Of a stretch of DNA of 64,000 bases, positions 45,260 through 49,445 are shown one piece after another. The notes under the pieces are model-generated. The model was not told the origin of the DNA, ran no database searches, and was given only the letters and a program-made list of their open reading frames with translations. The position numbers and the translations under genes were made by a program. This DNA comes from Paenibacillus sp. FSL K6-3182 (GTDB taxonomy: Bacteria; Bacillota; Bacilli; Paenibacillales; Paenibacillaceae): assembly GCF_037976325.1 (NCBI RefSeq), contig NZ_CP150265.1, forward strand, positions 5,017,501-5,081,500. Reading direction: 5' to 3'. Positions within the stretch are counted from its first letter, which is position 1, and every line of letters starts with the position of its first letter.

Positions 45260-46312
45260 TTAAGAAGACCTCATTAACAAATACAAAAAATAAGGAACGC
45301 TAAGCATCGTTACAAATATTCCAGCTGGCATATCAGGTCCTGACACAAGTGCCCTGACAATTGTATCCGCACTAAGTAAAATGATTCCACCGATCATACC
45401 CGATGCAGGCAATAGAAACTTATGGTCCGAGCCTACTAGCTTGCGTGCCAAATGCGGACTAATTAAACCGATAAAAAAAATCGAGCCGCCCAAAGCAACA
45501 CTGCCTGATGCCAAAGCAACTGCTGCGAGCGCCAAGCTTACAAACGACTTTCGGACGTTCACACCTACTCCTGTAGCTGTTGTATAACCAAGACCAATCG
45601 TATTCAGCAGGCTAGATTTATACCATACGTAACCGGATAAGAGCAAAACCCAAGGAGCTAGAATAGCGATATAGCTCCATTCGTCTCCCCACAGATAACC
45701 GGCTTGCCATTTTTGCGCGAATACAAACTGATCGTTATTAAGCTTAAGCGTCAGGAACAACGTTACTGCACCGAGTCCTACATTAATAGCGACACCTGTT
45801 AAAATAAGACGGGTTGGAGACGGAAACGCTCCTTTTCTATAAGCCAGCAAATAAATCAATAATGCAGCCAGCAATCCGCCTACAAAGGCGAGCAATGGCA
45901 AAAAAATAGCAGAGGACATACTTGTAAGTCCGACAGTAGAAATAAAGAGTAATACAGCTAAGCCTGATCCCGCGCTAATGCCAATCATTCCCGGATCAGC
46001 CAGATCATTGCGAAGAATGCCTTGCATGACTGTACCTGAAGCGGCCATCCCCATGCCAACTAACACAGCCAGCACGATGCGGGGAAGTCTAAACTTAAAT
46101 ACGACCAACTCGTTTTTCGCCGTACCATTGCCAAATAACGTTTGAATGACATCGACTGGACCAAGCGACATTTTACCGAGATTCATACTGCATATCGCGC
46201 CAGCGATAAGAAGAACGAACAATGAGACCACGATAAAAATCCGTTTGCGCTTCGCTCGTTGGTTATATGGATCAGCTGCTGATGGCTTTATACGACTTAG
46301 CTCAGCATTCAT
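45260..46312 (-). CDS. Iron-siderophore ABC transporter permease (FecCD family), second
   Basis: 350-residue membrane protein with about nine hydrophobic segments. FecCD motifs: RLPRIVLAVLVGMGMAASGT, MQGILRNDLADPGMIGISAG, and FIGLISPHLARKLVGSDHKFLLPASGMIGG. The ATG overlaps the stop of the first permease gene (ATGA). No ATPase gene follows, so a shared FhuC/YusV-like ATPase is expected. Confidence 0.94.
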   Translation of the reverse strand: MNAELSRIKPSAADPYNQRAKRKRIFIVVSLFVLLIAGAICSMNLGKMSLGPVDVIQTLFGNGTAKNELVVFKFRLPRIVLAVLVGMGMAASGTVMQGILRNDLADPGMIGISAGSGLAVLLFISTVGLTSMSSAIFLPLLAFVGGLLAALLIYLLAYRKGAFPSPTRLILTGVAINVGLGAVTLFLTLKLNNDQFVFAQKWQAGYLWGDEWSYIAILAPWVLLLSGYVWYKSSLLNTIGLGYTTATGVGVNVRKSFVSLALAAVALASGSVALGGSIFFIGLISPHLARKLVGSDHKFLLPASGMIGGIILLSADTIVRALVSGPDMPAGIFVTMLSVPYFLYLLMRSS

Positions 46313-47346
46313 TCAAGGTCACTCCTCACTCTGCTCGAAATGAACAGAAAAAGCGGGACACCAAGCATTGCAAACACAATGCCAAGTGCTACTTCATTCG
46401 GACGATTAACTAACCGCCCCGTCAAATCCGCAGCCAACATGAAAATGCCGCCATATACAGCTGATGCTGGGATGATATATCGGTAATCAACACCGACGAT
46501 TAGCCTCATTAAATGGGGAACGATTAGCCCAACAAATGCTATAGGGCCAACAAGTACAACAGATAAGCCGGAAAGGATGAGAACCGCTAGCGTAGATAAT
46601 AGCTTAATTTGCGTTATACGCTGCCCGAAGCCCACCGCAATATCTTCTCCAAGACTTAATATGGCAATGGAAGGAGACAAAACAAAAGCAAGAATCATTC
46701 CTCCTACAAACCAAGGCGCAATTAGTGCGAGCTCACTCCAAGTTGCCCCGGCCACACTGCCGGCTGTCCAATAGGAAAGCGCTTGTCCAACGTTAAATCG
46801 AATGGAGACAAAAGTACCCATTGCCCCAAACAGCATTGTAATGGACATACCAGCAAGGACGAGCCGCTGGGGAGTCATGCCTCGTTTGTTAAGTGATGCG
46901 ACTAGGTAAGTCATGACGGCTCCAAGACCCGCTCCTGCAAAACATACAAGAAGCTTATCCATATAACTAATACCCGGTATAAATGCAAGAACGAGCACCA
47001 TGGCAAAAGCTGCCCCCGAGTTTACGCCCATTAAGCCTGAATCAGCAAGCGGGTTGCGGGTCGTTCCTTGCATAATCGCTCCAGCCACCGATAAGCTGAT
47101 TCCTACTATAATGTCAGCAACCGTTCGCGGAAACCTTAGTGCTTGAATGATTTGATGTTCTGGTATGTCCGGATTAAAAGAAAATACTGCAGTCCAAGCA
47201 ATAGAAATATCCATTCGTGCTGCACCGAATGAAATTGATGCGGCAGCGGCTATCAAGAGCAGCAGCATGCCAAGGAGAAGAAATAGCCCAAAGAAAGCTC
47301 TGCCGCGAAATACGGGATTTATACGGTTGGTTTTTATCGCAGCCAT
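46309..47346 (-). CDS. Iron-siderophore ABC transporter permease (FecCD family), first
   Basis: 345-residue membrane protein; motifs RFPRTVADIIVGISLSVAGAI, MQGTTRNPLADSGLMGVNSG and FVGLIVPHLMRLIVGVDYRYIIPASAVYGG. It begins 6 bp after the binding-protein stop and overlaps the second permease gene. It forms the heterodimeric channel with it. Confidence 0.94.
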   Translation of the reverse strand: MAAIKTNRINPVFRGRAFFGLFLLLGMLLLLIAAAASISFGAARMDISIAWTAVFSFNPDIPEHQIIQALRFPRTVADIIVGISLSVAGAIMQGTTRNPLADSGLMGVNSGAAFAMVLVLAFIPGISYMDKLLVCFAGAGLGAVMTYLVASLNKRGMTPQRLVLAGMSITMLFGAMGTFVSIRFNVGQALSYWTAGSVAGATWSELALIAPWFVGGMILAFVLSPSIAILSLGEDIAVGFGQRITQIKLLSTLAVLILSGLSVVLVGPIAFVGLIVPHLMRLIVGVDYRYIIPASAVYGGIFMLAADLTGRLVNRPNEVALGIVFAMLGVPLFLFISSRVRSDLE

Positions 47347-47352
47347 CCTAAA

Positions 47353-48354
47353 TTACTTGCCTGCAGCCGTAGCTAACAAGCTATCCGTAATCATATCAAG
47401 CTGAGTCCTTAGGGAATAGATATCCGTGTAATAAAACAAACCAAAAGGAGCCTCTATAACACGCTTTTCCTTAACTGCAGCTATACTGCTCCAAACCGGA
47501 TTGTCTGACAAATCGTCCATACCTTCCCACGAACTGCGCAGCAATATATCCCCAACATATTGCGGCATTACTTCCATAGAGATCGTTTGGCTTTCAGCTG
47601 CTTTCGACTTTTCAAGCTTCTTCTGAATGATCTCTGGTCCTTTCATGCCTAAATAATCGTAAACGATTTGGGAGCCACGACCATACTGCTTGCTCTCGAT
47701 AACCAGCATTTCCTTCTTGTCGCCTTCGACAATCGTGATCGTTTTATCAAGTATTCCAGCCGAACGAAGCTTCTCCTTGCTAAGTTCCACTTTGTTGTTG
47801 AAATCATCCAGAAACGCTTTTGCTTCCTTCTCCTTGCCGAATACCTCGCCTAGCTTCATAATCCGCTCTTCTGTAGATACCTGATCGGCAGCAATGAGAA
47901 CAGTTGGCGCAATATCCTTTAAATTACTGTAGCTATTCTCAGAATTCACGATAATCAGATCAGGATCCAGCGCCATTACTGCTTCTGGACTCGTTTCATC
48001 CCAATGTCCTAATGATTCTGCCCCTTTCAATTGCTCTGAAAAAGCCGCCCCGTCATACACCTCGGAAATCCCGATTGGATTGACACCTAGTGCAACGATG
48101 TCGCCTAGCATATACAAAACAACAACACGTTTTGGGTTTGCTGGAACGATGACATCTCCTTTAATAGTAGAGATCGTGCGAGTGCCTTCTTCACTTACCG
48201 TCTCGGAATTTGGTGAAGCCGTTGCGGTAACGTTTACTGCAGATCCAGTAGAGTTAGTCCCAACATTCGTCCCCCCACTAGAGCAAGCGCCTAGCAGCAA
48301 CGTTAAACTGAGCAGCGTGCTCAGGATTAGTAACGATTTTTTATTCCTTTTCAT
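47353..48354 (-). CDS. Siderophore-binding lipoprotein from internal start
   Basis: Nested in the AraC frame. ATG 48354 has GGAGG about 10 bases upstream, a Fur box and a sigma-A promoter, and begins a complete lipoprotein (MKRNKKSLLILSTLLSLTLL, lipobox GAC). The product of 333 residues has the usual length of FeuA/FhuD-type Fe3+-siderophore-binding proteins. I take this as the main functional binding protein delivering ferric siderophore to the two downstream permeases. Confidence 0.8.
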   Translation of the reverse strand: MKRNKKSLLILSTLLSLTLLLGACSSGGTNVGTNSTGSAVNVTATASPNSETVSEEGTRTISTIKGDVIVPANPKRVVVLYMLGDIVALGVNPIGISEVYDGAAFSEQLKGAESLGHWDETSPEAVMALDPDLIIVNSENSYSNLKDIAPTVLIAADQVSTEERIMKLGEVFGKEKEAKAFLDDFNNKVELSKEKLRSAGILDKTITIVEGDKKEMLVIESKQYGRGSQIVYDYLGMKGPEIIQKKLEKSKAAESQTISMEVMPQYVGDILLRSSWEGMDDLSDNPVWSSIAAVKEKRVIEAPFGLFYYTDIYSLRTQLDMITDSLLATAAGK

Positions 48355-49311
48355 ACTAATAAAACCTCCGCTTTTGTATTGGTAATGATTATCACTACCA
48401 ATTACACTATAGCGTCGTAATCTTGAGGCGCCAATGGACAATTTAGAACTGAAGCGCGGACTATCTTCCGATGTTGCCTTTTCTCGTTCCATGGCCTGAT
48501 ATCGTACTGGAGACAAACCGGTCTGTTTTTTAAACAGTCGGCTAAAATAATATTCATCCGCATACCCGACTTGCGACGCAATAACCCGCAAGGATGACCT
48601 CGTCTCCAGCAGCAGCTTTTTGGATTCATTTATACGGATCTGAATGAGATATTCAATGGGACTAGCTCCCGTTTGCTGCTTAAATTTCGTCGATAAATAA
48701 CGAGGACTATAATTGTATTGATTCGCAAGAAAATCAAGCGTGATTCCTTCTTGATAGTGATTATGAAGATAACGTATCACTAGCTTCACGAGATCCTTTT
48801 GACCGTTTTTCGAATCGAACGTTTTTTGATTCCGCAATACCTCATGAACAAATTGATAAAATAAACCCTTTATCTCCACACTGCCAAGGCTGCCTGAATT
48901 TTTTAATGTCTGCTCCATCGAGGACATCAGAAATAACATGGCGCGCGGTTCCTCCGGTTCAAATCCATATTGGATTTCAAACGGACTTTTACGCTCGAGC
49001 CACTGCCTCATTTCCCTCCAGCCAGAAAAAGCGAGCTTCGCTCGATAAAATAAAAAATAAAACTCAAACTCTTCCTTCGCTTCGATCTCCAATATCATCC
49101 CTTTTGATCCGTGCAGCAAATAAGATCGCCGTGTCTGATGAATGACATCGTCAAGTATCAAATGTGCCGAGCCACGAACTCCAAAAATAAAGCCACTAGC
49201 GGGAAAGCGATAATTTACCATACACTCACCAGCATTCATGACCGTGTGCCTAATATCAAATATTTTAGCAGCTGAATGATTCCAAATCGCAATTTGCTCT
49301 TCGAACTTCAT
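47353..49311 (-). CDS. AraC regulator in one open frame with a siderophore-binding lipoprotein
   Basis: 652-codon frame. Residues 1-150: cupin-like ligand region; about 190-285: AraC HTH (LDFLANQYNYSPRYLSTKFKQ, ASQVGYADEYYFSRLFKKQT); 286-319: linker that is simply the translated promoter of the next unit; 320-343: lipoprotein signal with lipobox LLGACSS (Cys343); 344-652: siderophore-binding fold (NPKRVVVLYMLGDIVALGVN, ALDPDLIIVN). RBS AGAGGAGA. In B. subtilis, Btr is a natural AraC-SBP fusion next to feuABC, but it lacks a signal peptide. Here the secretion signal lies in mid-protein, so either a fusion intermediate, a lost stop codon, or two overlapping products (see internal start at 48354). 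Confidence 0.85.
   Translation of the reverse strand: MKFEEQIAIWNHSAAKIFDIRHTVMNAGECMVNYRFPASGFIFGVRGSAHLILDDVIHQTRRSYLLHGSKGMILEIEAKEEFEFYFLFYRAKLAFSGWREMRQWLERKSPFEIQYGFEPEEPRAMLFLMSSMEQTLKNSGSLGSVEIKGLFYQFVHEVLRNQKTFDSKNGQKDLVKLVIRYLHNHYQEGITLDFLANQYNYSPRYLSTKFKQQTGASPIEYLIQIRINESKKLLLETRSSLRVIASQVGYADEYYFSRLFKKQTGLSPVRYQAMEREKATSEDSPRFSSKLSIGASRLRRYSVIGSDNHYQYKSGGFISMKRNKKSLLILSTLLSLTLLLGACSSGGTNVGTNSTGSAVNVTATASPNSETVSEEGTRTISTIKGDVIVPANPKRVVVLYMLGDIVALGVNPIGISEVYDGAAFSEQLKGAESLGHWDETSPEAVMALDPDLIIVNSENSYSNLKDIAPTVLIAADQVSTEERIMKLGEVFGKEKEAKAFLDDFNNKVELSKEKLRSAGILDKTITIVEGDKKEMLVIESKQYGRGSQIVYDYLGMKGPEIIQKKLEKSKAAESQTISMEVMPQYVGDILLRSSWEGMDDLSDNPVWSSIAAVKEKRVIEAPFGLFYYTDIYSLRTQLDMITDSLLATAAGK
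48378..48402 (-). promoter_or_regulatory. Fur box inside the AraC-lipoprotein linker
   Basis: TGGTAATGATTATCA (48380-48394) differs from the 7-1-7 Fur consensus TGATAATNATTATCA at one position and lies within a wider dyad ATTGGTA/TACCAAT (48378-48402). It sits just downstream of the -10 hexamer, so iron-bound Fur would block the internal promoter. Confidence 0.85.
48406..48434 (-). promoter_or_regulatory. Internal sigma-A promoter for the binding-protein/permease operon
   Basis: On the minus strand TTGGCG (48429-48434), 17-bp spacer, TATAGT (48406-48411), directly upstream of the Fur box. It lies within the coding sequence for the AraC C-terminus. Confidence 0.75.
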
Positions 49312-49345: not shown

Positions 49346-49368
49346 ATTATAATTGAAAATCGTTCTCA
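49346..49368 (-). promoter_or_regulatory. Fur box and -10 of the AraC gene
   Basis: TGAAAATCGTTCTCA (49354-49368) fits the Fur 7-1-7 pattern TGANAAN.NTTNTCA; the -10 hexamer TATAAT (minus strand, 49346-49351) overlaps its edge. The AraC gene begins 35 bp further on. Iron therefore controls both starts. Confidence 0.75.
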
Positions 49369-49421: not shown

Positions 49422-49445
49422 AAACACACCCGTTTCGATGTGTTT
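49422..49445 (-). terminator. Weak terminator after the DUF4386 gene
   Basis: AAACACA/TGTGTTT stem (49422-49428 with 49439-49445) with a U run on the minus strand. Confidence 0.6.

Follow-up and report, generated by a model that had tools for sequence, protein, structure and literature searches.

A candidate nested two-product gene links an AraC-type regulator to a siderophore-binding lipoprotein in Paenibacillus

Results

A regulator and an uptake lipoprotein in one frame

The stretch of DNA analysed here (the window) comprises 64,000 nucleotides of Paenibacillus sp. FSL K6-3182 (NZ_CP150265.1, positions 5,017,501 to 5,081,500), and on its minus strand a single open reading frame (ORF) joins an AraC-type regulator to a lipoprotein with a siderophore-binding substrate-binding protein (SBP) domain. 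The ORF runs from an ATG at 49311 to a stop codon at 47353 and comprises 652 codons with no internal stop, in agreement with the original prediction that an AraC helix-turn-helix (HTH) domain and a lipoprotein signal starting at Met320 occupy one frame. A counterpart that is 100% identical is found in Paenibacillus sp. FSL A5-0031 (L169). The best-known relative of such proteins is Btr (YbbB) of Bacillus subtilis, which is linked with FeuABC; its SBP domain has no export signal and resides in the cytoplasm, and a separate lipoprotein gene lies next door.

Both AraC/XylS HTH models, PF00165 and PF12833, match above their gathering scores, and the Peripla_BP_2 domain (PF01497) at residues 431-622 scores 79.5 bits compared with a gathering score of 27.5, with the FhuD-type proteins 3hxp and 3g9q as the best matches among solved structures. 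By motif, a signal peptide and lipobox follow a usable internal start. In an AlphaFold2 model the AraC and SBP parts are well defined and a helix spans residues 327-342, directly preceded by the sequence KRNKK; at a predicted template modelling score of 0.46, the placement of the domains relative to each other carries no meaning. Residues 281-327 and 344-375 have local confidence (pLDDT) values below 50, and the linker, which is under constraint as DNA (see below), is predicted to be disordered, no fold being modelled with confidence. The parts of the gene are as follows.

47353..49311, minus strand: fusion ORF (long product), AraC regulator plus lipoprotein SBP; 652 aa, Pfam domains
48802..49311, minus strand: N-terminal part of the regulator, about residues 1-170; beta-rich, then helical in AlphaFold2
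48493..48768, minus strand: AraC DNA-binding domain, residues 182-273; Pfam PF00165/PF12833 (HTH_AraC/HTH_18)
48283..48354, minus strand: lipoprotein signal sequence MKRNKKS...LLGAC, residues 320-343, with Cys343; lipobox LGAC, predicted helix 327-342
47356..48183, minus strand: siderophore-binding domain, about residues 377-652; PF01497 at 431-622, FhuD-type structure matches, AlphaFold2

A -35/-10 pair, a Fur box and a ribosome-binding site had been claimed inside the translated linker, and we located all of them in frame and found them kept across the fusions. The -35/-10 pair would constitute an internal promoter, here called P2, with a putative Fur box of the 7-1-7 type beside it. Translation from Met320 would yield the 333-residue short form that had been proposed (652 minus 319). 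A tandem direct repeat next to P2 and a Fur-like box upstream of the whole ORF, described below, are additional to the original prediction. Read in the direction of the gene, the elements of the linker are the following.

48458..48464, minus strand: distal operator half-site ATAGTCC; consensus ATnnTCC, 22 bp from the proximal one
48436..48442, minus strand: proximal operator half-site ATTGTCC, abutting the -35; consensus ATnnTCC
48429..48434, minus strand: -35 of P2, TTGGCG; motif and conservation
48406..48411, minus strand: -10 of P2, TATAGT, 17-bp spacer from the -35; motif and conservation
48380..48394, minus strand: internal Fur box TGATAATCATTACCA, translated DNHYQ; 1 mismatch in 14 defined positions
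48365..48369, minus strand: ribosome-binding site GGAGG of the short product; motif
48352..48354, minus strand: internal ATG, residue 320, opening the 333-aa short product; motif and conservation

The linker elements are conserved as DNA

We followed these elements through two overlapping sets of relatives. Omission of the Btr-like L019 and L039, which have no lipobox, from 105 distinct full-length ORFs left 103 fusions, and a second, named set comprises the best 80 of 294 relatives (one genome per species, found by patterns in the AraC part), which belong to Paenibacillus, Cohnella, Lysinibacillus and Brevibacillus, plus one strain labelled Bacillus. Together the sets give 182 rows, omitting the named locus L193 whose frame is broken in the SBP, and these collapse to 170 distinct genes. 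One alignment (A3) combined the window with 56 of the 78 usable named loci.

An internal Fur box with at most three mismatches in 14 positions, sought in 110 positions per fusion, is present in 103 of the 103 full-length lipobox fusions, compared with 10 of 1449 control windows taken from other parts of these ORFs; it is perfect in 48 fusions and carries one mismatch in 29, two in 16 and three in 10. All 80 loci of the named set likewise have it in frame. In both sets the box keeps one constant reading phase, even though a second phase would also stay open, whereas among 15 unfused loci (some of them near-copies) its phase relative to the SBP takes every possible value (8, 5 and 2 loci). The first four codons of the box are nearly invariant in their choice of synonym (GAT for D in 78/78, CAT for H in 77/77, TAT for Y in 95/97 and AAT for N in 92/102), compared with fractions of 0.69, 0.80, 0.73 and 0.67 for the same D, H, Y and N synonyms elsewhere in these ORFs. 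This codon choice, together with variants that retain the DNA box, rules out the reading of DNHYQ as a peptide motif instead of a DNA element, and the operator copies described below, which are read in two frames, exclude it as well. In line with selection at the DNA level, third-base identity at unchanged residues reaches 0.76-0.90 over residues 291-314, the four highest values among alignment windows with more than 2000 comparisons, and 0.61-0.68 over residues 279-290, against 0.46 gene-wide. Amino-acid identity in the linker is low (0.12-0.49 per alignment window over residues 273-314).

With no frame condition imposed, a -35/-10 pair was detected in 93 of 103 linkers, with a 17-bp spacer in 87, and a score of at least 8/12 was reached in 88 of 103 linkers, compared with 66 of 947 control windows. 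A chance promoter was considered because a sigma-A scan alone gave no excess of such sites; conservation across the fusions answers this objection and makes the pair credible. The distance from the -10 to the Fur box shifts in threes in 92 of 93 cases, a count that covers open-frame rows only and in which one alternative phase would put a stop codon in the -10 or the Fur box. Further downstream, a start codon with a ribosome site is present in 98 of 103 fusions, in 85 of these 21-26 codons before the lipobox Cys, and the lipobox itself in 103 of the 105 full-length ORFs and in all 80 named loci. The suggestion that one locus makes two products is thus well supported, as far as sequence can speak, by the conserved frame, internal promoter, Fur box, start and lipobox.

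A tandem repeat at the internal promoter resembles an AraC operator

Anchoring on an in-frame -10 and a -35 beginning with TT was achieved for 163 of 170 linkers and revealed a direct repeat, (g)ATnnTCC, at -30 and -8, with the copies 22 bp apart and the second running into the -35. Both half-sites, with at most one mismatch and a spacing of exactly 22 bp, occur in 119 of these 163 linkers and at 72 of 287,920 control positions in the same ORFs. The two copies are read in different frames, the first as D-x-P and the second as x-S-I, which argues for selection on the DNA and not on a peptide motif. Tandem direct repeats two turns apart beside the -35 are typical of AraC-family activators, and judged by this pattern the ATnnTCC repeat is an AraC-type operator.

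The genome of FSL K6-3182 encodes nine lipobox fusions and one Btr-like relative without a lipobox. Searched with the combined operator and promoter pattern at up to two mismatches, it gave nine matches, and none for a reversed control. The three perfect matches all lie inside fusion linkers and three more, with two mismatches, in other fusion linkers; the others comprise one before the separate SBP of the Btr-like locus, one that overlaps a related lone AraC gene at its end and a last one that is unexplained. The operator alone, at two mismatches, returned 113 matches compared with 23 for its reversed control. Places of the operator-promoter pattern with two mismatches include the 3' end of the lone AraC gene L125 (G000:735039) and G000:6262714-6262772 (minus strand).

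The region upstream of the ORF and the downstream permeases

Ahead of the whole ORF lies a second candidate promoter region, P1.

49354..49368, minus strand: Fur-like box TGAGAACGATTTTCA; 3 mismatches, weaker than the internal box
49346..49351, minus strand: TATAAT, possible -10 of P1; sequence match only

A Fur box with at most two mismatches within 200 nt upstream was found in 112 of 171 family members, compared with 0.26% of shuffles; the window's own box, with its three mismatches, falls outside these 112. An AraC operator at P1 was also sought and rejected, since 9 of 171 members had one at two mismatches or fewer over both half-sites and about 8.4 were expected from shuffles. Because the Fur box is enriched before the whole ORF and the operator repeat is not, the likely target of the regulator is the internal promoter. 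A terminator-like hairpin lies upstream of the P1 region (49422-49445, minus strand).

On the other side of the fusion, two permease genes follow, the first of which begins 6 nt past the fusion stop codon.

46309..47346, minus strand: FecCD-type siderophore permease 1; NCBIfam matches below equivalog cut-offs
45260..46312, minus strand: FecCD-type siderophore permease 2; NCBIfam matches below equivalog cut-offs

The open frame is kept among relatives

The original prediction would have failed if all close relatives carried an in-frame stop before the promoter, and they do not. As full-length sets favour open frames, we searched 99 genomes with the AraC part only, scoring up to 24 candidates per genome, and found that 145 of the 150 matches listed sit in open frames of 644-746 aa (this count and the exceptions were made by eye). 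Of the five exceptions, L132 is a remnant of the AraC part: its frame has a stop in the linker, and no SBP was found beyond it. In L133 the frame breaks within the SBP domain, in L134 (606 aa) the match to the SBP ends early, and the last two (591 and 596 aa) are Btr-like genes. When 60 genomes were searched with the full-length fusion, unbroken counterparts at 71-72% identity turned up in at least four relatives, along with many more paralogues. In a plasmid collection, none of the 1511 records with a match covers 80% of the query.

Some loci of the family have further features. A second family member stands beside the fusion in tandem in L149 and L177 and on the opposite strand in L198, and L149 and L198 are followed by a gene that, judged by eye, is flavin reductase-like. 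The plasmid regions L282 and L283 closely resemble each other, yet one is assigned to Lysinibacillus fusiformis and the other to Stenotrophomonas rhizophila; the second of these names looks doubtful.

Unfused Btr-type loci carry the same elements at the regulator/SBP junction

A pattern search fetched 20 loci, of which 14 were examined: five are unfused Btr-type loci, two are fusions (L264 and L277) and seven have no relative nearby and are probably chance matches. The five unfused loci, from two other genera (L263 and L265; L269, L270 and L271), carry the operator, -10 and Fur box at the junction between regulator and SBP. In each, the regulator ORF lacks an export signal and terminates a little way into the operator; the -10, the Fur box, a separate ORF for an SBP lipoprotein and a permease come next. 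Computed on stretches without their first residues, the five regulators match the Btr model (cut-off 900 bits) over nearly its full length, with scores of 513.4, 530.0, 892.9, 921.5 and 972.6 bits; the last three values belong to L269-L271, two of which exceed the cut-off and so qualify as genuine Btr, while one falls just under it. All three unfused regulators that were scanned also match Peripla_BP_2. The match of these regulators to the Btr model strengthens the operator reading, and the presence of the same operator, -10 and Fur box at Btr-type junctions makes the fusion linker the counterpart of the switch between Btr and its SBP gene.

Splitting also appears to have occurred from within the fusion family. 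In split derivatives from three genomes (L128, L285 and L286), an operator with one or two mismatches precedes a separate SBP gene, and no other copy at two mismatches or fewer occurs elsewhere in the fetched stretch. The locus L264/L284 (G223) is fused and has an operator and a Fur box at two mismatches each, lacks the lipobox Cys and is followed by a separate SBP and permeases. In the more distant unfused relative L135 (G032), a single TAA stands between the half-sites; past this stop, the linker and Fur box already share one frame with the SBP, and this junction is a possible picture of the ancestral state.

Trees were built from 34 of the 170 fusions and hand-picked comparators; they were midpoint-rooted for drawing, such that terms like 'clade' or 'sister' depend on the root. 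In the AraC tree all 34 sampled fusions group together (support 97/90), with L132 and three derivatives inside, and two unfused AraC genes, one of them L135, adjoin this group. Classical Btr-type domains form a separate group (97/87). The Btr-like L128 and L019 (100/100), which have neither internal promoter nor signal, are nested in the fusion group beside F_L075. The idea that the fusion is an intermediate towards Btr therefore holds in part: Btr-like genes do lie nested within the fusion family, while the fusion is itself widespread and kept and the classical Btr domains fall elsewhere in the tree. The SBP tree, which has several long branches that make single placements unsure, gave a different picture, and monophyly of the sampled fused SBP domains was rejected, since they are interleaved with separate and Btr-type SBPs and supported branches force at least nine changes. 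As judged from this tree, SBP domains were exchanged.

Discussion

We consider it probable that the ORF is a nested gene with two products, a regulator resembling Btr and an uptake lipoprotein of the FeuA/FhuD kind, which are read in the same frame and use the same SBP-coding sequence; an internal promoter would answer both to Fur and to the AraC domain that the gene itself encodes. Retention of the frame suggests that the long product is needed, and retention of the lipobox and of a start with ribosome site suggests the same for the short one. We propose that the apparently Fur-controlled P1 would drive the long protein, consisting of the AraC domain, the disordered linker, the hydrophobic helix and the SBP, whereas P2, set with its operator, Fur box, ribosome site and ATG in the DNA that encodes the linker, would produce the short form, a lipidated SBP serving the permeases. 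Under iron shortage, Fur would leave both promoters; a ferric siderophore bound to the SBP part of the long protein would then turn the AraC domain into an activator of P2, raising the output of the SBP and, with it, of the permeases. In this scheme the use of both promoters, the binding of Fur and the AraC domain, and the activation by ligand are inferred.

The continuity of AraC and SBP parts survives the loss of signal or lipobox, which suggests that the SBP serves the regulator as its sensor, as in Btr, on whichever side of the membrane it lies; in the long form it could possibly reside either in the cytoplasm, again as in Btr, or outside the membrane. The membrane tether originally suggested for the long product is possible, yet the split derivatives do without the membrane segment. 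A more specific version, which we put forward tentatively and hold somewhat short of an even chance, is that the product of one SBP-coding sequence works on both sides of the membrane: in the long AraC protein it would be the ligand sensor in the cytoplasm, and in the short form the lipoprotein that is exported. The operator, promoter and Fur box would then be the translated interdomain linker, a full sense-and-capture circuit would be contained in a single, often stand-alone gene, and splitting would have given rise to pairs of Btr-like and SBP genes at least once.

Of the alternatives, a transmembrane one-component receptor survives best, and we regard it as unlikely, if worth serious attention. 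Here the lipoprotein signal would insert the long form with its N-terminus inside, holding the AraC domain at the membrane and the SBP outside, so that siderophore capture is signalled to the AraC domain, perhaps on docking to the permease, with the short form as an extra lipoprotein. The KRNKK that precedes the hydrophobic helix 327-342 and the near-universal lipobox (103/105) fit such a topology. However, the short form requires the signal anyway, so that its conservation is uninformative on the long form; L128, L285 and L286 have lost the segment yet keep AraC-SBP continuity (L285 lies outside the tree), L264 stays fused without the lipobox Cys, and lipoprotein processing would sever the link between AraC and SBP. 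That same cleavage is turned to use in a second alternative, which we find improbable: a self-splitting polyprotein that, once inserted and lipidated, would be cleaved by signal peptidase II into an SBP and an AraC domain with a signal-peptide tail, the latter remaining membrane-bound or being released by an intramembrane protease. The lipobox is in place for this, but such a scheme leaves unexplained why fusion, and not adjacency, is kept.

It is far less probable still that AraC and SBP act separately and that the missing stop is a functionless, neutral by-product. The poorly conserved and predictedly disordered linker peptide would suit this account, which was already disfavoured by the 145 of 150 open frames among the AraC-part matches listed, by the spacing in threes between -10 and Fur box (92/93 open-frame rows) and by the constant phase of the Fur box in fusions where a second phase is also open, against all three phases in the 15 unfused loci. 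A sequencing or assembly error that masks a stop codon in the window is refuted by independent genomes at 68-72% identity that share the open frame.

Several observations weigh against the nested two-product gene as we draw it. P2 itself, a 9/12 match, is one of 9 such sites in the 5 kb scanned, where 10.8 are expected by chance; 10 of 103 linkers have no -35/-10 pair by the first criterion, and 7 of 170 could not be anchored on a -35. In 13 of 98 fusions the chosen start lies merely 10-15 codons before the Cys, and the control for start and ribosome site (629/3673) is not like for like, in that the best of several candidates per locus is compared with single codons. The full-length sets were selected for an open frame, so that retention of the frame can be judged fairly only from the matches listed in the AraC-only search. 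The operator is poor in three of the nine lipobox fusions that the genome encodes (L036, L037 and L038, with 5, 4 and 8 mismatches to the pattern), and together with the linker stop of L132 these paralogues weaken the generality of the scheme a little. The unfused Btr loci carry a mismatch in the -35 (ATGG for ATTG), and the split derivatives have no Fur box at two mismatches or fewer (L128 has one at three mismatches). No window-like permease was found within 3 kb downstream in 60 of the 80 named loci, a search in which contig ends cut a few loci short and other transporters were not sought; the partner may sit elsewhere or be of another kind, and many fusions may be stand-alone capture genes. 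Finally, should the hydrophobic segment insert, the long form would have its SBP outside, where signal peptidase II might cleave it off, and sensing would then work differently.

The arrangement shares parts with several known systems. Like Btr, the fusion has an AraC HTH followed by a Peripla_BP_2 domain within a single polypeptide and is associated with a siderophore-binding lipoprotein and with permeases, and the tandem ATnnTCC operator, -10 and Fur box appear, from their sequence, to be common to the fusion and to regulator loci at or near the Btr cut-off (L269-L271). In contrast to Btr, the regulator has as its SBP domain the very lipoprotein used for transport, complete with signal, Cys343 and an internal promoter; the next genes downstream are permeases and not a separate lipoprotein gene; the fusion scores 102.5 bits with the Btr equivalog model (NCBIfam NF049932, cut-off 900), its best stretch being residues 135-278; and its AraC domain belongs to another part of the tree. 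With FeuA/FhuD-type lipoproteins it shares PF01497, the lipobox, FhuD-type structure matches and, at the window locus, downstream permeases, whereas its SBP, unlike theirs, is encoded in the 3' half of a regulator gene. ToxR/CadC-type transmembrane one-component regulators have a winged-helix DNA-binding domain; the fusion, with its single hydrophobic segment (a predicted helix), would resemble them if its DNA-binding domain lies in the cytoplasm and its SBP outside the membrane, whereas its DNA-binding domain is of the AraC type, its segment is a lipoprotein signal and derivatives exist without it. Genes with internal promoters that yield N-terminally shortened proteins also exist and similarly use one frame with two start points, but in the fusion the internal promoter is likely activated by the first domain of the gene itself, and the second product is an exported lipoprotein. 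A literature search that covered titles and the openings of abstracts, with most subscription papers outside its reach, found no description of this arrangement, which is weak evidence of absence.

A recurrent layout of this kind looks like a built-in one-gene control circuit and not like an accident. A cis-regulatory region, complete with operator, promoter, iron box and ribosome site, is kept as coding sequence in many paralogous and orthologous genes among the 170 distinct ones examined, under a double constraint. Annotation calls for caution, because an uptake lipoprotein can be hidden inside a regulator gene, and with nine lipobox fusions in the genome of FSL K6-3182, several siderophore systems could be assigned on this basis. 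If our reading is true, these genes would constitute a very compact control circuit and a natural test of how substrate-binding proteins become the sensors of regulators.

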